Assembly: GCA_963924555.1 (NCBI GenBank)
Contig: OZ004593.1
Coordinates: 4,646,480-4,710,479, forward strand
From: Crambe crambe
Lineage: Eukaryota > Porifera > Demospongiae > Poecilosclerida > Crambeidae
Length of the DNA: 64,000 nt
Direction of reading: 5' to 3'
The translations under genes and the position numbers were made by a program. Under the pieces are notes generated by a model. That model was given only the letters and a program-made list of their open reading frames with translations, made no database searches and had not been told where the DNA came from. Positions within the stretch are counted from its first letter, which is position 1; every line of letters begins with the position of its first letter. Positions 8,985 through 44,953 of this stretch are shown piece after piece.

Positions 8985-11712
8985 TAGTCCGCGAATTTGG
9001 GGAGTTTTCAATCCTGTTCCGTGTAATATATCTATAGTGCAACCAGGCATCCAGTTCCAAAAAGTTCTCAGAGCCATAACTTCTACAAAAATCACTATTA
9101 TAGCTTACTTTTTGCTTCTATCAGCTCCTCTCTGAACACTCTAAATGATGCCACTTTCAAAATCTACCACAATCTGACCATTATAGAGTTTTGTAACTGC
9201 CCACCTATTTAGGTGGGCAAATAAAAAAATATTATGGGCTATGACATCATCATTTCTATACCGCGTTTTTACCGGGAAATTGATTCTAGAAGAAGGTTTT
9301 GAGTTAGCTAACAAAGAGTGTTGTTGGAGGAGATTTGCAAATGCCAGCCAGGTCCAAGAGGCAGAGAGCAGGGGAGAAGAACACAAAGAAGGCAAGAGCC
9401 AAGAAAGGAAGGATAGAAGTTGGTGAAGGATCCTCTGCTGGGTTAGAAGAAAGTGGTGAGGTGCATGGATTGTTAGAGCTTGCTACAATGTCTGGTGACG
9501 CTTTAGATACTGAGGATGAAGCTGTAGACCCATCTTTTGATCTAGATAGTAGCATGAAAGATGATGTGGATCATATGATTGAAGCTTTTTGTGAGGAATG
9601 GGTCTTGCAATTGGATAGGGATGATCCCTTAGCTTTAGGATTGTTCTTGAGCTTCCAGCTATCTAAGCACTTCAATATGGGAGCAACAAAAGCTGCTGAG
9701 CTTGCTGGGCTTATGATTGGAAGGTCTGATAGAACTGTGAGGGAATGGAGAACCTACTTTTTCAATCATGAAGGACAAATACCTGACTGTAAACAGGGCC
9801 AGTATCAGCGTACAGGGGTTCTTTGGTGTAGTGAAGATTTGAACAAGAAAGCTAAGAAGTATGTACGAAATAATTGTAATGTTAAGGGTAAGCCCAATCT
9901 TACTGTAGGCAGTTTCTGTGAATGGATTAACAATGACTTGTTACCTAACTCAACTCTCGAGCCTGGATTTCCAAGGAAAGTTTCACCAGAAACTGCTCGT
10001 AAATGGTTGCATGAACTTGGGTTTAGTGTCCTCGATAAAAAGAAGGGTACATTTGTCGATGGTCACGAGCGTGATGACGTGGTTGAGTATCGCTCGAAAT
10101 TTTTACATAAACTCATTGGTCTTGGTTTTCTTAATGAGGGAAATGCTCCTACCGAAGATGCCAAAACAGCCCTACATAACTATACTAACTTGGAACAACC
10201 TAGTCCAGATATAATTGATAAAACAATTGTAATATTTCATGATGAGTCTACATTTCATGCGAATGAAGACCAGGCTACTTTTTGGGGAGAGAAAGGTACC
10301 ACAGTAATGCGACCAAAGTCTAGGGGAAGTGGAATTATGGTTTCCGATTTTATAGAGGAAAACAATGGGTATTTGGCTTTGACTCAGGCTGAGTATGATG
10401 AGGCTAAAAAGAGTGACTCATCAGCAAAAATGTATGCCCGGCAGTTGTTGGAATTTGGTGAAAATAAGGAAGGGTACTGGACTTCAGACAAATTTATTTC
10501 TCAAATAAGAAGTGCTGTTAAAATAGCTAATATAAAGTACCCTAAAAGCAGTGGATATAAAATTGTGTGGATGTTTGACCACAGCAGCTGCCACGCAGCC
10601 ATGGCCGACGATTCTTTGGATGTCAACCATATGAATGTGAATCCTGGAGGGAAGCAGAGGGTATTGAGAGATGGGTGGTGGGGCGGAAAGCCACAGAAGA
10701 TGACAGATGCGCATGGTGTGCCTAAGGGTTTGAAAAGGGTATTAGAAGAGCGCAGCATAAATACTGCACGGTTGAACCAAGCCCAGATGCGTGAATTACT
10801 AGGTAGTCACCCTGACTTCAAGTATGAGAAATCCAGAATTGAACGTTTGTTAACAGAGGAATATGGCCATATAGTTTACATGATTCCTAAATTTCATTGC
10901 GAACTAAACCCCATAGAACGGGTTTGGGCGCAGGCGAAGCGTTATGCTAGAGCTTATTGTAAATATAATATACAGAGTCTTAGAAACACTGTTATACCAG
11001 CATTAGACGTAGTAACCCTAGATAATATCAAGAACCACTTCAGAAAAGTACGCCACTATATGTTTGCATATTTGGAAGGAATTCCTGGGGGTTCCGATCT
11101 AGAAAAACTTGTTAAAGCATACAAGAAGGAAATTAAGTCCCATCGTAGAATTTCCGAAATTCAGTAATTAGTTTCATTGTGTATATTTGCTATTTTTTTG
11201 ATGTTTTGCATATTATGTTCTATAATACTTAAAAAGACATGTTCCAATGATGTTCTCTTTAAGTTTGAGAATTTTTTGCAGAAATCCTTAATTATTGATG
11301 GCGTTTTGATTGATCATCCTTATTTTCACTGTTGCACTCTAGAAACTAAACACTCCATGGTACTGTCAAATTTGTTCAATAACAACAATTTTGCTCCTTA
11401 TTAGCAACCTGTTGATTGTGATTTGAAATAATATGATAAAATATTTTTGCTGTTGATGTCATTTATTCAAAATGTCCATATATGGAAGCAAAACCGACTG
11501 GCGCGTTACCATGGTAACCAAATTCTAGCATATTATAGTACATACCTAGCTAGACCACTCCACAAAATTTGACATTATGAAAGGAAATGGTATCTTGTCC
11601 ACATCAAAAACAAAAATTTGGAGAAATTGGAACTGGATGCCTGGTTGCACTATATGGTGTAGCTCAAAATCATTCTAGACCCTTGAAAAAAGAGAGCCAA
11701 TTTCCGAAATGT
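8985..11712 (+). mobile_element. IS630/Tc1/mariner-superfamily element with intact transposase and inverted terminal regions (about 2.7 kb)
   Basis: A perfect 28-bp inverted pair (left 9033-9060, right 11627-11654; core gtgcaaccaggcatccag) brackets a single long ORF. Outside each copy a further 45-55 bp matches imperfectly (left 'cgcgaatttgg.gagttttcaa', right inverted 'cggaaattgg.ctttttcaag'), so the true ends are probably near 8985 and 11712. The exact ends and a TA duplication could not be fixed. The inner perfect 28-mer may be the transposase-binding site. An intact ORF with well-kept terminal sites suggests recent activity. Confidence 0.7.
9341..11167 (+). CDS. Transposase, IS630/Tc1/mariner superfamily, DD112E type (608 aa)
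   Basis: Single intact exon. I chose the ATG at 9341, which gives MPARSKRQRAGEK; the frame extends two codons upstream only through TTG. Layout: basic nuclear-localisation-like run (residues 3-28), acidic linker (about 40-80), helix-turn-helix-like region (about 105-145, with GRSDRTVREW), then SPETARKWLHELGF and the motif FVDGHERDDVVEYR. The DDE/RNase H-like catalytic core follows. Acid residues sit in VIFHDESTFHAN (Asp301), VWMFDHSSCHA (Asp413) and PKFHCELNPIERVW (Glu526). The 112-residue gap between the second Asp and the Glu is far longer than the 34-41 of classical Tc1/mariner. Cut-and-paste transposition in the nucleus is inferred. From memory, the same FVDGHER/HDESTFHAN/FHCELNPIE layout is common in basidiomycete and cnidarian repeats. 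Confidence 0.85.
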   Translation: MPARSKRQRAGEKNTKKARAKKGRIEVGEGSSAGLEESGEVHGLLELATMSGDALDTEDEAVDPSFDLDSSMKDDVDHMIEAFCEEWVLQLDRDDPLALGLFLSFQLSKHFNMGATKAAELAGLMIGRSDRTVREWRTYFFNHEGQIPDCKQGQYQRTGVLWCSEDLNKKAKKYVRNNCNVKGKPNLTVGSFCEWINNDLLPNSTLEPGFPRKVSPETARKWLHELGFSVLDKKKGTFVDGHERDDVVEYRSKFLHKLIGLGFLNEGNAPTEDAKTALHNYTNLEQPSPDIIDKTIVIFHDESTFHANEDQATFWGEKGTTVMRPKSRGSGIMVSDFIEENNGYLALTQAEYDEAKKSDSSAKMYARQLLEFGENKEGYWTSDKFISQIRSAVKIANIKYPKSSGYKIVWMFDHSSCHAAMADDSLDVNHMNVNPGGKQRVLRDGWWGGKPQKMTDAHGVPKGLKRVLEERSINTARLNQAQMRELLGSHPDFKYEKSRIERLLTEEYGHIVYMIPKFHCELNPIERVWAQAKRYARAYCKYNIQSLRNTVIPALDVVTLDNIKNHFRKVRHYMFAYLEGIPGGSDLEKLVKAYKKEIKSHRRISEIQ

Positions 11713-25005: not shown

Positions 25006-25010
25006 CTTAC

Positions 25011-28000
25011 TCTCGATTAAGTCTTGTGAAAAAATCATTAGCTTCTGCTTCACGCCTGTCTATGTTAGATAACTCTCTGCAGTATTCAAAATAAGTTTTG
25101 CAATAATAAGGTATGCTATGTGTGTACTTATCTTCCATAGCAGCATGTCAATTTGCACTGTCATGGTCTTAGTATTGTTGTAATAGTAATAATATACTGA
25201 TTATTCTAGTGAAGTCTATAGCTACACAGAGTTTAGCATATTGGTTCAGGCAAGCAAATAAATGAGACACTGAGTGTGGACATGGGTTTCTATAGAGCTT
25301 GCACTTTTTTTATTAATTGATCTTGGTTTTATGTGTCCATCTATTATATCACATGACTTGAAATTGTAGTGTGCAAGCTCACTTACAATATTAAAAGGAT
25401 CTTACTTGTCTCTCATCCTGGTACAAGTGAAAAACCAGAAACAGATGCAAATCAATCCAACGATAGAAAATGAGCCACACAAGACAGAGACAAAAATGAT
25501 CACTCCGAAGATATGAACTATATAATAATTATTGGTATCGTAAAGTGAATCAGGGGCAGATCCAGGGTAGGGGTCCAGGGGGTCCAGACCCCCCCATTTG
25601 TTGATAAGTTAGTAATAGGTTTATAATGCAGCACAAAAGACAAACTTCCATACTCATTTGTGTTTGTTCTCTAAAGGGATACTAGCTTTACCAATGTTTT
25701 GCTTCCACAGGAGGGGCATGTTGGACTCCCCCCTTTCAAAATTGCTGGATCTGCCCCTGTGAATGTACACACACATAGGCATGCATGCACACACACGCAT
25801 GCATGCACATACACACATGCATGCATGCACACACGCACAATTGAATCTCCAATAGCAGACACTCTGAAAAAGGACAAATCTCTCAACAAGGCGGGACAAC
25901 TTAAAAGTACTTTTGTATTAACTATACACTTAATACAAAGTAACCTCCAAAGAGGACAACCTCTCTACAAAGGACAAAAGGCTGGATCCAAATGTGTCCA
26001 TTATTTGGAGATTTCATTTCTTACTTCCACATGTTCGGAAGTTGAATTTGAACTGAGGACAATTGATTTTTTCAAAAGGAATAGTAAATCCTTCAAAAGT
26101 TATTACTCCACAGGCTTTTGTTTCTTCACACCAATAGCACTCAAATATGGTGGCATTTTGTGAAGCCATAGAGTGTAGCTACAATGAATATAGAGAGAAT
26201 TAAATAGTTAACTAGGAGAGCATTGGGGCCCTATATTTTATGAGACAAGGGGCGCCTGTACAACCTTGAGTGCTACTTCACCAAGGAATTTTCTAACGAT
26301 ATAATTTTCGATCAAACTTGTTACCTCCAGTGCCCCCACCCCTAACCATCTTCCTACACCAATATAATTTATACAGGGATTTCCCCCATTAAATCAACAT
26401 TATAATAATTATAGCAACTAAAATATTTATATATAGTAAAGAATGCTAAAACACTGACTTACTCTTTGGGTGCAGGCAGTGCAATTGGTGTTACTGAATC
26501 GTGCACAAAAGTATATCGAATCTGAAGTTGGAATAGTTACATGTACACTCTTAGCTCATAGCCTTAAGTTATTATACAGTGAAACCTCCAATAACCTTGA
26601 ACATTCTGATAACCTCTCAACAAAGGACAATCTAAAAGTGCCTTTGCTTAATAACGAATGACCTCTATGGGTCCTAGCATTATTCCCTCAGGCCCCCTTA
26701 TTTGTTATTAGTTACAATCATAATCAAAAAAAGAGAGGCTATATGGGTCCCAAGTGTGTCAGAGGATTCACTCCAAAATTAGAGAGCTACTGCTAATTGG
26801 CTATATCTCATTCATTAACTAGCTAACATATAATACACTTGCTACCTATAGTAAGGGTTGGACTTGGGTCAGTCGATATTGTCAATTCAGTAGTGCTTTG
26901 GTTACGTTCATTGCTACAAGTATAGTTTCCTTCATCCGCAAAGTTTGGGTGATAAATAAAGAGAGTTAGCACAATGCTAGGTCCAGTGGTACCATTGGGG
27001 TAGATCAGAGTGTTATCCCCATCGTGAATAGTAATAAAATATTTTGATATATTGCTAAAATCTGCTCCACTACTTGTAGTCCATGATGGCATTGGGAGGG
27101 TAGAATTTCTTGAATAGCCAAGGACTTCACACTTGAGTGCCACGGTTGGTCCTCCCAGGATAACATTTATACTTGGAAATACACGAGTAATAGCTGCAAG
27201 GATCAAACCAGTCGTCAGGTATATACTCAGTAGTGATTCATGCTAGCTACATTATCATATTAGCCTGAAGGAGATGTTAATACTAAAAATATCCACCATA
27301 CAAAACCTAAAAGCATCAAGTAGTGGAATGAGGGTTCTCTACTTATCTTGGTCTGTGTCTAGCTACTTATCTTGGTCTGTGTCTAGCTACTTATCTTGGT
27401 CTGTGTCTAGCTACTTATCTTGGTCTGTGTCTATATAACCTACTATACATCTTACTTGGTAATTGCACATCATAACTCCTTCTTTCTGGGAGAATGGCAT
27501 TATCAAAAGTAGCTTCACATGTATAGATTTCATCATCTAGTTCGTTAAGTTCTCTTGCAGTCAGCTTGCTGGTTCTGGTTGCATCTGCACTGAGTATTGT
27601 AAATTTACTTGAATTGAGCATCATATCGCTGCCTCTACTCCAATGCCACTCAATCGATCCTTCATTCGATACTGTGCATGTCAGTATCAATGACTTACTA
27701 ATTAAAGTTTCATATCCTACTACCAAAATCTGAGTCTCTGTTATGGGGGTCTGAAATATCACACGACTACTTGGTACAGTTGGTTGTGAGTCTGTACAAA
27801 ATCTGACTTCACTCAAAAGGAACCAGTCTACATTGTATACCTCCGTGAATGTCCACCTGAGGAGAACCACTAGACTCATGAATGGTGTGCGAGGAAGAAG
27901 AGAAACTCTTCTGATAGTGTGATCATCATCAGACAGCTCCCTGTTATTCCATATGTCAAAAATGACCTCTGCCATTTCAGATGCAGTTGTTACTGATAGA

Positions 28001-28796
28001 TCTGATGTACGATACAGACGCAAATTTGGTAGGCTAATATTCTGATTTGGATAGTTCAGAAAGTACAGATCAATAGCCGTCATTAAAGAGGCACTGGTAA
28101 GTTGAAATGATAAATATGAATACATATTGGTCTTGTTCCATGCTATAAACTGGAGCCTATCGTCATTATGATCGATATTTGGCTGACTAGGTCCTAAGAT
28201 ATCATCCGCTAATACTATAAATCCTGGACAAATAGTGTGATTACTTCCATCCACAGAGCAGCCCTGTGATCGAGGTGCAATAGCCAAAGTTCCTTTAAAT
28301 GAATCAGAGACTGTTCGAAAAAATCTCACATTTGCTGTAGTCATATTAAAGTCATGAAGGAAGGTCATAATGAAGACGGTATACTTGTGAATGGGTATGT
28401 AGTAGCTTAAGTAGACAGCAATGGTGTATTAGCTATCACTAAAATAGTGATATAGTACTTGAGAAAAAGGGTCTTATCAAAAAGTTGTAGCTAGATAAAA
28501 GGCTTGTAAAGTTTACAAGTCACATATACAAATTACCTGAAATCAGTGATTTCAAACCACAGATTAAGAGCTCTGAAATGATACCAATAACCATTTTGAA
28601 TTTTTGCTCCATAAGGCCCCTTTTCTCAAGTATTGATAATCTGATATCATTGTAATAATGATCCTCTATGTCATTATTGAGGGGATCTGGCTCTATTGGC
28701 GAAATTAATGTATTACTCACGACCAATAGTGCAGAGCTGAGCTGAAATACACAGTGCATGAAATAGAGCAAACAATAAAACACAGAAGCGGTGCAT
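25011..28796 (-). CDS. Type I membrane receptor B: signal peptide, novel N-terminal domain, two Ig domains, TM, short tail
   Basis: Reconstructed from splice sites with matching phases: exon 1 28796-28724, exon 2 28334-27456, exon 3 27193-26846, exon 4 25517-25406, exon 5 25076-25011. Exon 1 gives the signal peptide MHRFCVLLFALFHALC. Exon 2 (293 codons) holds a domain of about 190 residues with GCS...TICP...RFC cysteines and the core YFLNYPNQNISLPNLRLY, followed by an Ig domain (LTCTV..W...YTCEA). Exon 3 is a second Ig (VALKCEV..W...NYTCSN). Exon 4 is a membrane helix (GVIIFVSVLCGSFSIVG, then CTRMR stop-transfer). Exon 5 begins the cytoplasmic part; a plausible final exon near 24920 would close it after about ten residues, so no kinase is evident. 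It is probably a cell-surface recognition or adhesion receptor. Paralogue A lies just upstream. The exon 1 donor (G/GTCGTG) is weak but conserved in position with A. Confidence 0.75.
25551..25759. mobile_element. MITE with CAGGGGCAGATCCAG ends and 5-bp duplication TGAAT (209 bp)
   Basis: Left end caggggcagatccagg is inverted at the right end (ctggatctgcccctg). TGAAT flanks both sides (25546-25550 and 25760-25764). The subterminal parts are G-rich on the left (gggggtcc) and C-rich on the right. It lies in the intron between exons 3 and 4 of receptor gene B. Its ends fit the consensus CAGKGGCRGATYCAGG shared with the 605-bp element at 51524-52128. Confidence 0.85.
25768..25836. repeat. Microsatellite of CA and GCAT units
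   Basis: Alternating 'acacaca' and 'gcatgcatgc' blocks directly follow the MITE. They create long Cys/His-rich frames on both strands that are artefacts. Confidence 0.85.
27337..27433. repeat. Tandem repeat, 4 copies of a 24-bp unit
   Basis: The unit tacttatcttggtctgtgtc plus 'tagc' is repeated four times with virtually no change. It sits in the intron just beyond the donor of exon 2 of receptor gene B (donor gtaag read on the minus strand at 27455-27451). Confidence 0.9.
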
Positions 28797-28820
28797 TTCT
28801 TTAACTATATACTGACTTCT

Positions 28821-28848
28821 AGCAGCGCGTTCGCGCGCACGCGTTCAC
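28821..28848 (-). promoter_or_regulatory. CG-repeat promoter patch of receptor gene B
   Basis: The sequence agcagcgcgttcgcgcgcac (then gcgtt) is an isolated CG-rich island in AT-rich DNA. It begins about 25 bp upstream of the gene B ATG (28796, minus strand). Analogous CG patches precede gene A/the dehydrogenase and the third UGT gene. Confidence 0.45.
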
Positions 28849-28859
28849 ATATCAAAGGT

Positions 28860-29956
28860 TCAAAGGTTCAATGTTAGGAATACCTCTATGATAATATGGT
28901 GTGAATTGATTAAGGGTAGAATGTCTCTTCACAGGGATGAATTAGGATAGGACCATCCATAATAGGTGAGGCTGAAGGATAGTTGTAATGATAGAGCTTG
29001 TCTTTATGAACAAGGCAGAGCTGGATTAATGATCTTGATCCCTGTATACCATGGTCCCTAGCATCGTCCCGTAAGGTCATCGGCATGAGAAGTGATCCAA
29101 GGTAGACTCCATTCACAGTAGCACCTACACCTGATCTGCTAGGAGGGAGTCAATTACAAGTAGAAATGGCAATCGAGAGAGAACTTCACTCCACGTTTCA
29201 ATTTGAAGGTACGTATACGGTATGTGACTTTTTGTTCTGCCACTCCTTTGTCATGTGTCATTAAAATTAATGCAGACCATTTCTATGCTTAGCTACACTA
29301 GCTATGAAGCTGCTCTCAAAGAAGTGGGCTGCACCACACACTCTTTCCAGAACTTTCATCGGCACATTATGTATGATGTGTCAGGATGATGATACTGTCC
29401 AACTGAGCATGCGCATCAAATTTTAATGAATGAATAATGATTGTATTGTTATCTATTCTAGATATGGAAGGTGCCAAGATAGTATAAATCCTGGAGATGA
29501 CCTGTGTAGACACAGAAGCATCGACTCTTAATAAATGCACATATAGGTTTTGTTAGCTATGTACCTTCCTGAAAATTTCCTTCCTAGCTCTCTTTTATCT
29601 TGTAACCATCTGTGCACAGTAAATAAATTAATTAATTAAACTCTGAGCTTGGACTTGTACGAATGTTTATTCAGTAGGGATAGCCTTGGTCTCATCGCCA
29701 ATGTTTAAATTTAGCTAGGAATAGCTAGCATTTTAATCGATTGACACCAAAGCATAAAGGATTGGATCATTCATGTATTCTAACTCCATCTGTGTAGCTA
29801 CTCATAGTTTGTGAGAACTACAAGTATAACTGATTTTGAAGTATATTATATATCTACCACTGACTACATTTTACATACTGATAACTCATAAGTGGAGAGT
29901 ATCGGTTTGGGTCCTATGGTTGTGTATGCTACTGTTAGCTAAATAGCTATTTTTGC
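28860..29956. other. Intergenic, no recognised gene
   Basis: A doubled 'tcaaaggttcaaaggttcaa' lies at 28852-28870. An ORF of 68 codons on the minus strand (29116-28910) has no recognisable feature. Nothing else was found. Confidence 0.35.
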
Positions 29957-30190
29957 AGAGGTATCAGAGAGTGCGCTAGCACTCTCTAAGTAAGGATGGC
30001 AGGTCAAAGGTCATAAGACAGTATAAACTAAAAACTCTTCTTTCTATTCTACCTTTACTCTACAGGTTCTCAGAAGGCTACAGTGAATCATCATAGCTAC
30101 ACAGAAGAGAGAAGAATGTTCAAAAATCTAAAATTCTTTCGCTGACATAAGAAAAAAACGATATCTAAAATTGACTTTTGTTCTATTTCT
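29957..30190. repeat. Dispersed repeat, copy 1 (second copy at 50803-51002)
   Basis: The two copies share in order: 'agcactctctaagta.ggatggc', 'ggtcataaga', 'ttctactctaca.ggttctcag', 'aaggctacagtga', 'acacagaagag', 'gaagaatgtt', 'cataagaaaaaaacga' and 'ttgttct.tttct'. They are in the same orientation, with small deletions distinguishing them. The start (gagagtgcgctagcactctc) is itself palindromic, suggesting a transposable unit. Family unknown. Confidence 0.75.
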
Positions 30191-30493
30191 AGCTAATAGC
30201 TACTAGTTGCTTGAGTTCTGCACCTATCATCACTGACAGTCAGCCTGATGACCAGTTTCAGACTCAGAGTCTCGACATGAGGTATACAGTGAAGGACCTT
30301 CCAAGAAAAGGACAACCTCCCAATGTCTTTCAGGCCCCTAACTTCAAGGACAAATCCTTTACTCGGAAGTTCCAGTGGAATGTTTGATACCTTTTTATTA
30401 TACACCAAAAGAGGACTACAAAGGATAAAAGGCTGGGTTTCAAGTATGTTTATTATTTGGAGGTAATTAAACACATAAAAGGGAAAATCTTAC

Positions 30494-33217
30494 CTTTCTC
30501 TGTACCCTTTAAAAATTCTATAAAGACAGCAAAAAATCAAAGAAGCAACTCCAAAAATGATGACTGCAGCAACAACAGAGGTACCAATCACCAAGGCTTC
30601 AAAAATATTTACTGTAATTATTATTTGATTATAATAGTAAGATTTGTCTCAATAATTATCGTTCTTACTTGCACATATCCGGAGGTTAAGCTTGGCCAGA
30701 GGACAATTAGAACTTCTTATTACTGTATTAAGATCTAAAGACTCATTCCACTGTCCACATAACCCTGTTTCTTCACACCAGTAGCATTTCCCCCCACTAT
30801 TCTAAAATGTATAAATTGCTAATCATAATGAAACTCACTAGTGATATTAGTGGTCACATGACTTGTGACCAATCAGATTCTCTAAAAAAGTGTGCTCTAT
30901 AATTATCTCACTTTTACGCATGTGCACTAAAATGCTTATTGAGGAACTTGTACACAGGAGCCTCGGTGGAAGATCCACTTGAACTATGACCTTCCAGCCT
31001 CAGTCCCTATAGTACCTATAACAGTGCTTACAAGCTAAGACTAGCTGTTAGTTTCAAATAGGAAAACTTCGGGAATTTTCCTGATTAATTTTGAATAACT
31101 TGATCATTCAATAGAATTAGTTCTCATAAAATTAGCTTATGAAACAAACCACCAACGTTTCGACCAGAATACTCTAGCCTTCATCAGGGTGATACAAAAA
31201 ATGCACACAGAAAACCCAATGTGTGTCAGAGCTTGTTAGGTACTATAAAAGAAAGCTAAGTATGGTGAGTCATAGGATTGTTCTGTAAAGATCAACTGGA
31301 ATCCGATTAGACCCAAGTCATGTGATCAGCACTAAATCGTTTAGATCACTCTGAACTAGCTGCATGATACACTTGAATGGTGCCATAGCTAGTGCTGTCA
31401 GTCAGTGAAGCACGCACTGAACTAATTTAGCTTTTTTTTACTGGATTTTAAGAAACCCTTAGGATGACTACCATCTATTCTTAAAAGCACTTACAAAGTC
31501 AAGACATGAATGACAGTTGGTACCATTGAAACTTGAACAATCTAAAGGTCAATGATAAGTCAATAGTCATTTTAAGTGAGTCTACTCAGCCACTTGTAAC
31601 AGTTAGAATCTGAAATATTTTTTTAAATATAAACTGAACTGTTTAACCAGAGGAAAATGAGATGGGCTTGTTCAATTCTTTGAATACGGTCATGATAGCT
31701 AGCATTTAATCATGGGAATAAGTCTCTGATCTGCTTTAGCTAACATGGGATGAAGCATGGTCTGTATAGATAAGTTGACCTTGATGGGTGAATCGGACCA
31801 ATGCATAAGGCACTTATGATATCCATCCATAATTATGATTGCTCTACAGTCTACACTAAAGATCTCACCTTGGACTGATTCATGAGCAGAAATATTTAGT
31901 CTTGCACCAACTGCTGCTGCAACGATTGAAGATAGTGATGTAATCATGGCTTCACATTTGCAGTGAACTGATAACTATTCTTATGATTAGTACCTTGAAA
32001 ATCTATTGTATACGTCCGATTCCTATAAGCTGTAGGATGACCATACATGTGAATAGCTTCACACATGAACATTAAAGGACTTGAGGTATTAAACTGATTA
32101 ATGACCAACTTGCTTGACCTAGTTCCATCTGCACTGAAGATTGAGAATTCACTTGAATTTCGTAATATTATAGCATCCTTGTATCTCCATCGCCACTTGT
32201 ATGATCCTTGCAGTGTTACTGTGCATGTGAGTGTCACTACCCTATTGATAAGATCTCTTGAACTTGGGATGTATATTGCATTTTCTGTTGCAGGCCTCTT
32301 AAAAATCACTACATTTGGTGAGTAATTTGGTTGCACGTCTCCACAAAATCTTGCTTCACTCAAAAGGAACCAGTTTATGTGGTATAGATCTGTGAATGTC
32401 CATCTGAGGAGAAATATTAAACTTCTAGATGGTAAAAGTGGACGTAGAGTAACTCTCCTTGTAGTGTAATCATTTTCAGACAACCATTCATTATTCAATA
32501 TGTAAAACATAACTTCTTCAGCATTATCATCAGATATAGTTGTTGATCTTGGATCAGATGTACGATATAGCTGCAGATTTGGTAGGCTAATGTTCTGAAT
32601 TGGATAATTCAGGAAGTACAGATCAATAGCTGTCACTAAGGTGACACTGGTAAGTCGAAAAGATGCATATGGAAATGTACTGTTTGATCTCCATGCTACA
32701 TACTGGAGCCTATCATCATTTTCATCGATATTTGGCTCACTATGTCCTACGAAATTATCTCCTACTACTATAAATCTTGGACAAATAGTGTGACCACTAT
32801 CATCCTTGGAGCAGCCTTGTAATTCAGGTGTCACAGATGCAGTTCCTTTAAATACATCAGGGACAGATTGAAAAGATCTCAAACTTGCTATAATCAGAGA
32901 AAGTAATAATGCATGAGAGCTACTGAGCTACTCCAGCCAATATTCGACCCTGATTATCTGGCACTTGGCCATTTTTAGTTTTAACAGCTACTTGGTTATT
33001 ACATTAATCACTGGTACAGTAAGGAAGTATCATCCAGAAAACCCAGAAAATATTCTTGCCTAAGCTCTCCGAATAATCAAGGTTGCACTGTAGCATAGTT
33101 ACATGGGTCACACTTCCAGCATGATGAATATTCTCACAACCAACCTGGAGTGCAGAGTTGAGCAGAAATGTTGAATACACATCTCAGTAGAAGAAAGAAA
33201 ATATGAAATCTGTGCAT
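30494..33217 (-). CDS. Type I membrane receptor A, paralogue of B (possibly incomplete in its second Ig)
   Basis: Exon 1 33217-33145 (MHRFHIFFLLLRCVFNISAQ, signal peptide), exon 2 32887-31994 (298 codons), exon 3 starting at 31916, and transmembrane exon 4 30611-30494 (VIGTSVVAAVIIFGVASLIF). Splice phases 1, 1, 1 and 2 equal those of gene B. Exon 2 carries the same N-terminal domain (GCSKDDSGHTICPRFIV, YFLNYPIQNISLPNLQLY, ARFCGD) and an Ig domain (LTCTV..W...FMCEA). Exon 3 starts like an Ig (SAHESVQGEIFSVDCRA) but loses similarity to B and reaches a stop at 31699. Either a donor at CAAG/GTGAG (phase 1, about 31868) shortens it, or the second Ig is damaged. N-glycosylation sequons (NIS, NSS, NRT) fit an extracellular role. 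No cytoplasmic exon after exon 4 was found. Its ATG is 208 bp from the divergent dehydrogenase ATG. Confidence 0.65.
31145..31205. repeat. Retroelement-end-like sequence (Penelope-type, uncertain)
   Basis: The phrase 'aacgtttcgaccag', then 'tactctagccttcatcaggg', resembles a sequence I associate with ends of Penelope-like elements. A looser match (ttggctgaaatgcctcagcc, then atcatcagggc) occurs at 46112-46150, and the palindrome at 6.45 kb shares its core. It lies in the intron between exons 3 and 4 of receptor gene A. The family is a guess. Confidence 0.3.
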
Positions 33218-40160: not shown

Positions 40161-40175
40161 ATAACCTAAGAGGGA

Positions 40176-41843
40176 ATGAAAATTGTTTTAATTATCTTTG
40201 TTTTTCTTCACACCTGGAGCAACGAAGCTTCTCCGAAAAGAAGTGAACAGTTGAAAAATGAAGTGAAAGGAGGGGGACCCGAATCAGATCCTTGGACGGA
40301 AGATCGTGCCCCGCATAATCATGATGTTATGACAACTACCAGACCCCTCTCTGTCCTTCTATTAAACGGTCTGTACCTCGGTCATCTCTTCCCCCTGGTT
40401 AGTTTAGGTGAGGAATTGGTGAGAAGGGGCCACAATGTCACTCTCTGTGCCAATGTACTCAAGGGATCAAGCATCTATCCAGAAATTGCCGAGAGGGTTG
40501 GAATCCAGTTTGTGAGTGCAGGCTATGATAGTGGAGTCACACAAGAGGAATTTGATGATATTCAATTAGCATTATACCACTTAAAGATGGAGCACTTTAA
40601 TACAGCACAACTGATCCATCTTGGATGGCCATCTATGATCCAGATCAGAGCCAAGGTAGAGGAAATTGGGTTGAACCAATTTGACATTATCGTCAGCGAT
40701 TTTGCCCTCATACCAACTAGTGTTTACTTCCATGAAAAGGGCAAGAAGTCTATCATATTCAGCACTTTATTATCAGTACGATTCCCAGCTACTGAACCAG
40801 AATGGCCTGTTCCAATAGTCAGTTCAGGACAAGCAGATGACCTCAGTTTCATAGAGAGGTTCCTCAATACCTTTTTCATCAGACCTTTAACTTACTCTTT
40901 TTTAAACCCCATATTTGAGGGTATAACTGGATCTGATCCACACTACAAGGAAGTTCTAGGAAATGTGACCGTTCTCTCTTACCCTGGTGTGCACATACCT
41001 GTGATCATAACTTCAGTATATGGTTTCGATTATCCAAGAATACGATGGCCTCTTATTGAATATGTGGGTCCTGTGCTGACAAACTCACCTCCACAGATTG
41101 ATGAAGAACTGCAGACTTGGCTTGATGGAAAGCCTAGAAAATCCGTTATCTACATCAGCATGGGTACGACTGCTTCTCTGTCAGAAAACAATGCAAGAGC
41201 TATACTAGAAGCAGTAATGTCGACTCCTTATCATGCCTTGTGGGTGATTAAGCCTCGAAATAGAGATGTACTTAATGGTGTTGACTTGACAGTGTATGGT
41301 AGCCGGTTGTTCTTGGCGGAGTGGGTTCCTCAGCAAAGAGTTCTGAGACATGCGTCAATTTTGATGGCTGTGCTGCACTGTGGTTTGAACGGAGTCCAGG
41401 AGAGTCTCTCCAATGCTCTTCCTGTTATCTGTATACCTTATGCCTATGACCAGTTTGAAGTAGCCACGAGGATTGCTAGTGCTGGTGTGGGTATTCCCAT
41501 GTATGGCTTCATCGATTCCTTAAGAGGAAAGAAAGAGTTCGATTCAGATGCGATGAAAGGTGCCATACATTCGTTGCTTTCTGGGAACTATGCTGAGAAC
41601 GCTTTAAAGATTCAGCGGCTCTTCAAGCAAGCAGGTGGTGTCAAAAGGGCTGCAGACCTGATAGAATTCTACGAAGATGTCGGATATGAACACTTGGTTC
41701 CGGCATATGCCAAACATGACTGGAATTGGGTGCAGTTTTACAATGCTGATGTCTGGATAACTCTGTGCATGACTTGCTTTGGAGTAGGATGGGTGTGGTG
41801 GAAAATAGTGAAATGGGTTCTACATAGATGTGGATGCTGCTAG
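40176..41843 (+). CDS. UDP-glycosyltransferase (UGT family, membrane-bound), intact (555 aa)
   Basis: Transfers a sugar from a UDP-sugar to small lipophilic acceptors, usually in the ER lumen; sugar and acceptor cannot be told from sequence. Single exon. N-terminal signal peptide MKIVLIIFVFLHTWSNEASP, then an unusual charged linker of about 45 residues. GLYLGHLFPLVSL holds the likely catalytic His70, with partner Asp175 in FDIIVSDFAL. The donor-binding signature runs from Trp383 to Asp425-Gln426 (EWVPQQRVLRH, HCGLNGVQES, PYAYDQ). A C-terminal membrane helix (ITLCMTCFGVGWVWWKIVKW) ends in a short Cys-rich basic tail, RCGCC. Length fits animal UGTs (about 520-560). It lies between a broken copy and a second intact paralogue; identical blocks shared with the latter suggest conversion. 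Confidence 0.93.
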   Translation: MKIVLIIFVFLHTWSNEASPKRSEQLKNEVKGGGPESDPWTEDRAPHNHDVMTTTRPLSVLLLNGLYLGHLFPLVSLGEELVRRGHNVTLCANVLKGSSIYPEIAERVGIQFVSAGYDSGVTQEEFDDIQLALYHLKMEHFNTAQLIHLGWPSMIQIRAKVEEIGLNQFDIIVSDFALIPTSVYFHEKGKKSIIFSTLLSVRFPATEPEWPVPIVSSGQADDLSFIERFLNTFFIRPLTYSFLNPIFEGITGSDPHYKEVLGNVTVLSYPGVHIPVIITSVYGFDYPRIRWPLIEYVGPVLTNSPPQIDEELQTWLDGKPRKSVIYISMGTTASLSENNARAILEAVMSTPYHALWVIKPRNRDVLNGVDLTVYGSRLFLAEWVPQQRVLRHASILMAVLHCGLNGVQESLSNALPVICIPYAYDQFEVATRIASAGVGIPMYGFIDSLRGKKEFDSDAMKGAIHSLLSGNYAENALKIQRLFKQAGGVKRAADLIEFYEDVGYEHLVPAYAKHDWNWVQFYNADVWITLCMTCFGVGWVWWKIVKWVLHRCGCC

Positions 41844-43265
41844 TGTGTTAGAGCTGCTGCAATTTTAGTATAGACACTGATCTGCTATATGGTGTTATCA
41901 CAAAAATGATGTTTCTGGTTTCATGGGGTTCAATATAAAATATTGGGGTGTTGCTATGTTTAGCTAAAACTTATACATTCAGCATGTAAAAATTTAGCAT
42001 GACTTACACCAAAGCTACACACAGACTGTTCCAAGCAAGTCTCTCTTTAGATGCATCACAACCACTAAATTTTCAAATGAGTGACTGAAAAGGGTTTCTG
42101 GGGTGGGGGAGACTCAAGTTAGAAAATCTCTGGGTGTCCCTACGTACCTCTGTATGAAACCCTGTTTTGTTTTTTTAACAGTGCAGTGTTGCATGAGCAA
42201 GACTAGTGTAAGATTAGAACCATGTGTGTTCATGGAAATGGGAGTTTCACACACCCGTCAGGCGTGTATCCCTGAACAACTGCTTTCTTAGAATAATTAG
42301 CTATTCCACCACCATTTAACCTAAATTCATTGTGGCATGTGTACTGGAATTACTCTCATCTCTTAATCCAGTCAGGAATTAAAATAGCTGCAGCTTGATA
42401 CACAATACTTGCTATAAATTCATAACCATAATGTGCACTAGCAAGAGCTGGTTACTTTTGGAGACTGCAGGCCCTTTAATGTATGCCACATCACAGACCC
42501 CCTCTTCATTTTCGGTTCAACCTTAAGTTTAACTGCTAATAGAATTGTATGATCAGACCTTTAAGCAAGAGTGAAGGATTTTTCTGCTTATCAAACTCTT
42601 GACTTCAAAAACGTAAGCATGCTGGCAGGCAAACCTCAAAGTTCCCCCCTTTAGTGCTGCCTTAGCTAAATAGTTGTAGGATGGGAAAGTTGTGAAATCC
42701 ACAGGTGGTATATACTGAACTGATCTGGTCACATTGGTAAAAATAGAGGTTGTTGTAGGTTAGAGTTACATGATAATTATCCCTTTCGTCTCTTGAAGCA
42801 TTTCGTGCTCCACATCACTGTAAAAAGTTTCCCGGCTCACAGGAAGGATTACCAGCAATCAAGGATCAATCATAACTTGCTGGCCATTGTGTTTGGCAAG
42901 AAGAGATCCACCAGCAAATCACGAAAGCAGACACACCACTAGACTTCCAAACATGTTTATGACCAAAGATATAGGAGCTGTATTAACATTCATTTTGTGT
43001 AGAGCTCAGCACCACTACCAAGGGCATCTGAAGCTAGCAAATTAGAAGCTGGAAAGAAGTAGCTAGTAAACTTTTCTGAGTCTAAAGCATAAGCATCTCA
43101 ATAATTCCCGTTTTCTTTCCTTCAAGACTGAATCAAGTGTTGGAAATCAACATCTTGAAGGCCAGGAAATGTCACATTCTCAATTTTCCTCAGCTGCACT
43201 TTAGGATCTGGGTATGCCATATTTATTTTATCATTAAACTAGCTTTTTGTACTGTGTGGCTGCTG
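41844..43265. other. Intergenic between UGT genes
   Basis: The first part (to about 42420) resembles the 3' flank of the next gene (for example 'gctgctgcaattttagtatagacact' and 'cactctcgtctctta'-like text), so the tandem duplication included the 3' flank. No other gene is seen; short frames here have no domain. Confidence 0.5.
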
Positions 43266-43270
43266 CAGGC

Positions 43271-43284
43271 GCGCGCGCGCCGGG
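43271..43284 (+). promoter_or_regulatory. CG-repeat promoter motif of the third UGT gene
   Basis: Exact copy of GCGCGCGCGCCGGG, found twice in the receptor A/ACADM divergent promoter. It ends 35 bp upstream of the chosen ATG at 43319. Being in the same position relative to unrelated genes argues for a core-promoter role. Confidence 0.5.
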
Positions 43285-43318
43285 CACTATATATTCATCG
43301 ACCCTGTACCTTCCCAAA

Positions 43319-44953
43319 ATGACGAATTTGGTATCGTTTTATATATGCCTTGTGTTTCTTCATGTCTGGAATATTTCCAGCCACGAAACTTCTCCAGAAA
43401 GCAGCGAGCGATCAGAAAATAACTTGAAAAGTGGTGAGTTCGAATCTCAGGAAGATCGCAAGATCTCTGTCCTTTTGATAAACGGTCTGTACCTCGGTCA
43501 TCTCTTCCCCCTGGTTAGTTTAGGTGAGGAATTGGTGAGAAGGGGCCACAATGTCACTCTCTGTGCCAATGTACTCAAGGGATCAAGCATCTATCCAGAA
43601 ATTGCCGAGAGGGTTGGAATCCAGTTTTTGAACCCTGGCTACGACAGTGGATTCACACAAGAAGAATTTGATGACTTTCAGTTAGGCCTCTACTCCCTCA
43701 AAGCAGACAGATTTGCAGTGAAAAATATGCACATGAACGAACCATCCATGATTCAAATCAGAGCCAAGGTAGAAGAGACTGGGCTGGATAAATTCGATAT
43801 GATTATCAGTGATGCAGTTCTCATGCCAATTGGTATCTACTTTCACAAAAAGGGAAAGAAATCTGTTCTTTTTTCAACTCTATTGGGAGGACGTTTCCCA
43901 GCTACTGAGCCAGAATGGCCTGTTCCAATAGTCAATTCAGGACAAGCAGATGACCTCAGTTTTATCGAGAGGTTTCTCAATACGTTATTCATCAGACTTT
44001 TCTTTCTCACACTCTTTAATATATTTCTTAGTATACCTGGATCTGATCCATACTACAAGGAAGTTCTAGGAAATGTGACCGTTCTCTCTTACCCTGGTGT
44101 GCACATACCTATGATCATCACTTCAGTATATGGTTTCGACTATCCAAGAATACGATGGCCTCTTATTGAATATGTGGGTCCCGTGCTGACAAACTCACCT
44201 CCACAGATTGATGGAGAACTGCAGACTTGGCTTGATGGAAAGCCTAGAAAATCCGTTATCTGCATCAGCATGGGTACGACTGCTTCTCTGTCAGAAAACA
44301 ATGCAAGAGCTATACTAGAAGCAGTAATGTCGACTCCTTATCATGCCTTGTGGGTGATTAAGCCTCAAAATAGAGATGTACTTAATGGTGTTGACTTGAC
44401 AGTGTATGGTAGCCGGTTGTTCTTGGCGGAGTGGGTTCCTCAGCAAAGAGTTCTGAGACACGTGTCAATTTTGATGACTGTGCTGCACTGTGGTTTGAAC
44501 GGAGTCCAGGAGAGTCTCTCCAATGCTCTTCCTGTTATCTGTATACCTTATGCCTATGACCAGTTTGAAGTAGCCACGAGGATTGCTAGTGCTGGTGTGG
44601 GTATTCCCATGTATGGCTTCATCGATTCCTTAAGAGGAAAGAAAGAGTTCGATTCAGATGCAATGAAAGGTGCCATACATTCGTTGCTTTCTGGGAACTA
44701 TGCTGAGAACGCTTTAAAGATTCAGCGGCTCTTCAAGCAAGCAGGTGGTGTCAAAAGGGCTGCAGACCTGATAGAATTCTACGAAGATGTCGGATATGAA
44801 CACTTGGTTCCAGCATATGCCAAACATGAATGGAATTGGGTGCAGCTTTACAATGCTGATGTCTGGATAACTCTGTGCATGACTTGCTTTGGAGTAGGAT
44901 GGGTGTGGTGGAAAATAGCGAAATGGGTTCTACATAGATGTGGATGCTGCTAG
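43319..44953 (+). CDS. UDP-glycosyltransferase (UGT family, membrane-bound), intact paralogue (544 aa)
   Basis: I chose the ATG at 43319 because it gives a good signal peptide (MTNLVSFYICLVFLHVWN); the in-frame ATG at 43247 would put the promoter CG motif inside the coding region. The role is as for the gene at 40176: GLYLGHLFPLVSL with the N-terminal His, FDMIISDAVL with Asp, the EWVPQQRVLRH...PYAYDQ donor signature, and a C-terminal membrane helix with an RCGCC tail. Differences are concentrated in the signal peptide, the short linker, and the acceptor-binding part (roughly residues 105-240: for example LGLYSLKADRFAVKNMHMNE). Two blocks are almost identical to the neighbour: about 150 bp around GLYLGHLF to VGIQF, and everything from GSDP.YKEVLGN to the end. 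That mosaic keeps the donor site constant and varies the acceptor site. Confidence 0.93.
   Translation: MTNLVSFYICLVFLHVWNISSHETSPESSERSENNLKSGEFESQEDRKISVLLINGLYLGHLFPLVSLGEELVRRGHNVTLCANVLKGSSIYPEIAERVGIQFLNPGYDSGFTQEEFDDFQLGLYSLKADRFAVKNMHMNEPSMIQIRAKVEETGLDKFDMIISDAVLMPIGIYFHKKGKKSVLFSTLLGGRFPATEPEWPVPIVNSGQADDLSFIERFLNTLFIRLFFLTLFNIFLSIPGSDPYYKEVLGNVTVLSYPGVHIPMIITSVYGFDYPRIRWPLIEYVGPVLTNSPPQIDGELQTWLDGKPRKSVICISMGTTASLSENNARAILEAVMSTPYHALWVIKPQNRDVLNGVDLTVYGSRLFLAEWVPQQRVLRHVSILMTVLHCGLNGVQESLSNALPVICIPYAYDQFEVATRIASAGVGIPMYGFIDSLRGKKEFDSDAMKGAIHSLLSGNYAENALKIQRLFKQAGGVKRAADLIEFYEDVGYEHLVPAYAKHEWNWVQLYNADVWITLCMTCFGVGWVWWKIAKWVLHRCGCC

Follow-up and report, generated by a model that had tools for sequence, protein, structure and literature searches.

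Two tandem genes in the genome of the sponge Crambe crambe are predicted to encode type I membrane receptors that probably belong to a DDR-like family, lack a kinase of their own and act as decoys or co-receptors tuning their signalling paralogues. Both lie on the minus strand of a stretch of 64,000 nucleotides (hereafter the window; GenBank assembly GCA_963924555.1, contig OZ004593.1, positions 4,646,480 to 4,710,479), and their coordinates below are those of the window. As modelled, the proteins are built from a signal-peptide-like start, a jelly-roll domain (the N-domain), one (gene 2) or two (gene 1) immunoglobulin (Ig) domains, a Cys-rich module, a transmembrane segment and a short tail. 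The same ectodomain is predicted from the sequence in paralogues that carry a DDR-class tyrosine kinase, YxxM motifs, or a motif like the immunoreceptor tyrosine-based inhibitory motif (ITIM). The tip domain, the Ig pair and the kinase point to one receptor stock. This family pairs a discoidin-like domain, invisible to Pfam and visible in its fold, with DDR-class kinases.

The N-domains of the two genes are 61% identical. The three conserved cysteines reported in the initial annotation (C24, C34 and C178) are invariant in six N-domains of the Ig branch, and two of them stay invariant among 32 members. A galactose-binding or discoidin-like beta sandwich had been guessed from the residue pattern, and structure prediction, which yields a good model, supports such a jelly roll. 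The nearest structural match of the predicted domain is DDR1 DS-like, with DDR1 rows ranking first and second in both structure comparisons. A first model built from six sequences was weak (pLDDT 62.5, pTM 0.65) and has been superseded; even so, discoidin-like jelly rolls made up most of its matches.

The initial annotation also described the N-domain as novel and impossible to name. This holds only at the level of sequence, where neither Pfam nor PDB sequence profiles gave a significant match; the fold is a known one, nearest to DDR1 DS-like, and a paralogue bears a DDR-class kinase. Pfam returned sub-threshold names only (best DUF5894, E 0.027), with F5_F8_type_C matching 0 of 32 members at E ≤ 1, and a 32-row N-domain profile matched no PDB sequence. 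In a set of 5.8 billion proteins, a single N-domain sequence retrieved none among 323 candidates. The 32-row profile recovered 230 proteins from the same set, so the miss with one sequence reflects a limit of sensitivity; among the 120 proteins listed none is named, and nearly all derive from ENA contigs. Viral contigs gave 79 pattern matches, none of which was confirmed. No description of the domain family or of its cluster was found in the portion of the open-licence literature that was searched.

The Ig domains of gene 1 score above the curated cut-offs (Ig_3, 40.5 bits against 30; I-set, 39.2 bits against 23.7; two stretches each), which places its product in the immunoglobulin superfamily. 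The best PDB match to this Ig pair is 8qpx, “Receptor tyrosine kinase (Fragment)” (E 8e-10), followed by 8ovq, “Cell recognition molecule, long form” (E 1.8e-9), with DCC far behind (about 5e-4). We take these two chains to be GCRTK and SAML of Geodia cydonium, respectively. The window genes had been put forward as an undescribed recognition or adhesion system, which is plausible and unproven; since the Ig pair of gene 1 resembles named PDB receptors, the two genes extend a known kind and do not stand apart. In one paralogue (L038), an exon with N-domain and Ig1 is followed by an Ig2 exon and then by an exon encoding a transmembrane segment, a juxtamembrane region and a tyrosine kinase; the available phase-1 borders would allow these exons to be spliced together. 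This kinase scores 271 bits with DDR2, 266 with a mixed DDR2/DDR1 chain and 261 with DDR1, compared to 228 for EGFR, 216 for TrkC and 187 for ROR2. The kinase match is independent of the N-domain match.

Genome-wide searches covered an assembly of 143 Mb in 119 contigs. Contig C16, which also bears the window, has at least 112 listed N-domain places, a count that includes fragments and broken copies; the majority lie at 5.43-6.07 Mb, and further places occur on C12, C21, C13, C20 and C1. The C16 count joins 98 places from one search (150 of 177 candidates scored; 103 of the 150 rows on C16, five second pieces left out) to 14 from another (19 rows, leaving out two second pieces and three rows already counted). 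Likewise, at least 27 DDR-like kinase places are listed on C16, some broken or short (28 rows minus one second piece; 131 of 1013 candidates scored). For most of these (23 of 27), an N-domain lies 1.6-3.5 kb upstream on the same strand; in a control with 10,000 circular shifts, such cases averaged 12.7 and never exceeded 19. Among the four C16 kinases with no N-domain detected, one at 4.98 Mb has frames for two Ig-like domains (by eye) upstream of a transmembrane segment and kinase. Within the scored candidates, full-length kinases off C16 are at most 42% identical to the C16 type, and short pieces on C6 reach 53%.

Paralogue tails were assigned by position, as frames in order on one strand. 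The tail at L003 has three YxxM/I motifs (YVEM, YEKM and YEKI), and that at L005 has the ITIM-like VMYEVI together with YATV. Four stalk members (at L025, L026 and L034) carry 7 to 16 YxxPhi motifs, many of them YAQV or YAHV, and two members at L027 carry two each. In the window tails there is no YxxPhi motif in either gene. Neither gene model includes a kinase exon, and none of 51 kinase rows falls inside the window, again with 131 of 1013 candidates scored.

The expectation that the N-domain always precedes Ig domains and a transmembrane segment proved too narrow, as six relatives examined carry a Pro/Ser/Thr-rich stalk in place of the Ig domains, with N-domain, stalk and transmembrane segment in one frame. 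Compared directly, the Ig and YAQV branches show no significant homology (best E 4.8; hhalign 2%). The Ig branch matches an L021-type branch in two directions (best E 3.6e-5 and 1.9e-4), and the latter matches the YAQV branch (E 1.6e-21 and 7.1e-19), the best reversed decoys across branch comparisons lying at 0.08 to 1.2. On these profiles, the Ig and YAQV branches appear linked solely through the L021-type intermediate. The domain limits for this comparison derive from an iterated profile, which is not counted as independent proof. Elsewhere on C16, two diverged N-domain frames share one place (4066000-4075900; L039 and L023), where a nearby frame at L023 ends in a hydrophobic stretch resembling a glycosylphosphatidylinositol signal (by eye). 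A tandem set at C16:4768000-4787800 (L040 and L044) has a stalk, a transmembrane segment and repeated YSVV-type motifs. The iterated profile missed its front part, which has only weak similarity to the L023 N-domain (E 0.01 and 0.04).

The ratio of nonsynonymous to synonymous substitution rates (dN/dS) was calculated by NG86 for 15 pairs, separately for the N-domain and Ig1. It is below 1 in 14 of 15 pairs for the N-domain and in all 15 for Ig1; the window pair itself gives 0.67 and 0.61, and the sole N-domain pair above 1 is L005/L006 (1.17). Diversifying selection, proposed earlier for these genes, is thus not borne out by pairwise comparison, and the ratios support constraint. Within exon 2 of the window pair (27456-28334 and 31994-32887), dS is 0.38 in the N-domain half and 1.03 in the Ig1 half. 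This difference suggests that gene conversion has affected the first half of the exon. The protein set contains two near-identical records, presumably of the same species, which agree at 290 of 295 and 292 of 294 residues (98-99%); one of them carries most of gene 2 exon 2 intact.

In the reading that we prefer, the jelly roll would use its loops to bind a protein or glycan of the matrix or the cell surface, with the Ig and Cys modules setting spacing and pairing. The window proteins may compete with kinase- or motif-bearing paralogues as decoys, or join them in mixed dimers as co-receptors. Products with such tail-less ends could thereby tune the signalling paralogues. Several points weigh against this reading. 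A Bifidobacterium domain equals DDR1 on Z (15.0) and a Bacteroides chain comes close on Foldseek E (3e-6). Aligned by profile with the DDR1 DS-like sequence, the N-domain gives no significant match (probability 7%, 15 columns). In addition, a discoidin-like fold specifies no ligand, circular shifts make a lenient control where genes are densely clustered, and the paralogue tails rest on position rather than transcripts.

A generic galactose-binding-like module could have joined a DDR-class kinase independently in this lineage, the DDR1 match then reflecting fold and not shared descent of the DDR ectodomain. We regard this as possible and somewhat doubtful, given that DDR1 leads both structure comparisons and that the kinase points to DDRs independently of the domain. 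The fact that the top structural match and the top kinase match are both DDR is also what would be expected if these proteins served matrix adhesion in the DDR style, binding collagen or other extracellular matrix, with kinase-less forms buffering kinase forms and no role in self-recognition. However, collagen binding in DDRs resides in the DS domain, and the structural match is to the DS-like domain instead. Furthermore, the genome contains only two partial matches to Pfam F5_F8_type_C, neither of them on C16 and just one exceeding the cut-off, and a copy number this high would be unusual for housekeeping adhesion; adhesion of this kind is therefore a tentative alternative. Decay of one or both genes into functionless copies is very improbable. 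Gene 2 has no detectable Ig2 and a weakly defined last exon, and both tails are short, which would fit such decay; yet every exon of both models keeps an open frame, the pair's dN/dS stays below 1, and the near-identical record preserves most of gene 2 exon 2.

Another candidate explanation, which we likewise hold only tentatively, is a complex for recognition of self and non-self or of microbes, in which one ectodomain type is joined to opposed tails (kinase, YxxM, ITIM-like or none) and the window pair belongs among paired receptors. The many N-domain places on C16 and on five further contigs, the variety of tails from VMYEVI and YVEM/YEKM/YEKI to the YxxPhi-rich stalk members, and the name of one of the two nearest PDB Ig pairs, a cell recognition molecule, all favor such a complex. 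Against it, allodeterminants are hyperpolymorphic, in contrast to the 98-99% identical records found here, and nearly all N-domain pairs show dN/dS below 1. In the accessible main text of a transcriptome study of grafting in A. queenslandica (PMC5450542), the words “immunoglobulin”, “tyrosine kinase” and “receptor” do not occur. A still broader and rather unlikely proposal is that a DDR-derived complex of about a hundred members, mostly on one chromosome, constitutes a sponge system recognizing self or microbes. Here, a jelly-roll ectodomain would occur in kinase, YxxM, ITIM-like, multi-YAQV and tail-less forms whose competition decides acceptance or attack, the window pair would serve as the decoy arm without tails, and DDRs elsewhere among animals would stem from the same ancestral receptor. 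The cluster supplies a concrete set of candidate recognition receptors. Nevertheless, tail-less decoys or co-receptors in a DDR-like family are the reading that we consider probable for the window pair.

The exon models are based on splice sites, open frames and conservation among paralogues, with transmembrane segments assigned by eye on the translated sequence. In gene 1 (28796-25007), seven exons bounded by GT-AG sites give an open frame of 564 residues; gene 2 (33217 to about 30078) has six exons and a frame of 427 residues. The two tandem minus-strand genes of the initial annotation are upheld, both models are open across all exons, and the phase-1 introns are indeed shared. However, two conserved exons before the transmembrane exon had been overlooked, which changes the phases from 1,1,1,2 to 1,1,1,0,1,2 in gene 1 and 1,1,0,1,2 in gene 2. 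The proposed domain order stands for the hydrophobic start, the single long exon with N-domain (about 180 residues) and Ig1, and the transmembrane exon, and the separate Ig exon is confined to gene 1. The end of gene 1 is corrected to 25007, and that of gene 2 is probably 30078.

In gene 1, exon 1 (28724..28796) provides the start codon and signal-peptide-like stretch and ends in phase 1, exon 2 (27456..28334; phase 1 at both ends) encodes the N-domain and Ig1, and exon 3 (26846..27193) encodes Ig2. The membrane-proximal half, organized alike in both genes, consists of a Cys-rich module across two small exons, a transmembrane exon and a short tail. These are exon 4 (26463..26521; phase 1 to 0; similar frame in L046), exon 5 (26025..26178; phase 0 to 1; CYWCEET...RTCG), exon 6 (25406..25517) with the transmembrane segment, and exon 7 (25007..25076) with the remainder of the tail, free of Tyr, and the stop codon. 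Gene 2 comprises exon 1 (33145..33217) with start codon and signal-peptide-like stretch, exon 2 (31994..32887) with N-domain and Ig1, a small Cys exon (31495..31541; phase 1 to 0) picked from two candidates by likeness to gene 1 exon 4, a Cys-rich juxtamembrane exon like exon 5 (30669..30801), a transmembrane exon (30494..30611) and a tentative last exon (30078..30096; SYDDSL and stop) picked among many possible acceptors. Four of its exons are well marked, and the small Cys exon and the last exon are less certain. Among gene 2 frames of at least 40 residues, the Ig2 profile found no such exon at E ≤ 10; the same profile picks up exons that are not among its members (L037, L036 second gene, L019) with E values of 1.7e-30 to 6.6e-46. 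From 31916, gene 2 has an acceptor and a half-Ig-like run, then stops.

The exon 5 frame has five relatives on contig C6 (43-51% identity), at 2.76-2.83 and 5.24 Mb. One locus there (L046; C6:2766400-2768400, minus strand) has frames like both small Cys exons and a transmembrane frame in the same order as gene 1. Given these relatives, that order and the versions in gene 2 itself, the two small Cys-rich exons are very likely coding. No PDB chain matched them (best E 0.26, a tail protein), and Rfam had no match within the window. Borders picked among several candidates place the exon 2 phase-1 acceptor in L038, L041 and L042, its phase-1 donor in these three and L043, phase-1 Ig2 borders in L038 and L041, and phase-1 transmembrane borders in L038, L041 and L043. 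On the plus strand, the window also contains two tandem UDP-glucuronosyl/glucosyl transferase-type frames (40170-41840 and 43238-44950; PF00201, E 9.7e-30 and 1.2e-27) and a long frame matching the transposase-type DDE_3 endonuclease (9308-11164; E 9e-8).

Several known systems offer parallels. The Hydractinia Alr allorecognition complex is likewise a cluster of genes for type I membrane proteins that contain Ig-like domains; unlike Alr, the sponge genes give no sign of allelic hypervariability in the two extra records compared (98-99% identical). The vertebrate paired Ig receptors (KIR, SIRP, LILR and Siglec) are similar in that clustered, similar ectodomains bear opposed cytoplasmic tails in paralogues. 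They differ in the fold at the tip and in that some sponge members have their own tyrosine kinase, and common descent is not implied. No ITIM-like or activating motif occurs in either window tail, such motifs being found in the tails of paralogues.

GCRTK and SAML of Geodia cydonium have a Pro/Ser/Thr-rich N-terminus, in contrast to the discoidin-like domain, modelled as a folded jelly roll, and the Cys-rich juxtamembrane module of the window genes. Two tandem Ig domains and a transmembrane segment are shared with gene 1, gene 2 having Ig1 alone. At two adjoining loci (L045 and L047), frames for two Ig-like domains (by eye), a transmembrane segment and a DDR-like kinase are present. According to a review (PMC10573612), DDR1 and the Geodia kinase resemble each other by 59-61% in their catalytic patterns. 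Compared to DDR1 and DDR2, the window proteins have no kinase, no Pfam discoidin match and added Ig domains. They also possess one jelly roll, whereas DDRs carry two. What is shared is the predicted DS-like jelly-roll fold, for which DDR1 is nearest, and, through the L038 paralogue, a DDR-class kinase nearest to DDR2 and DDR1.

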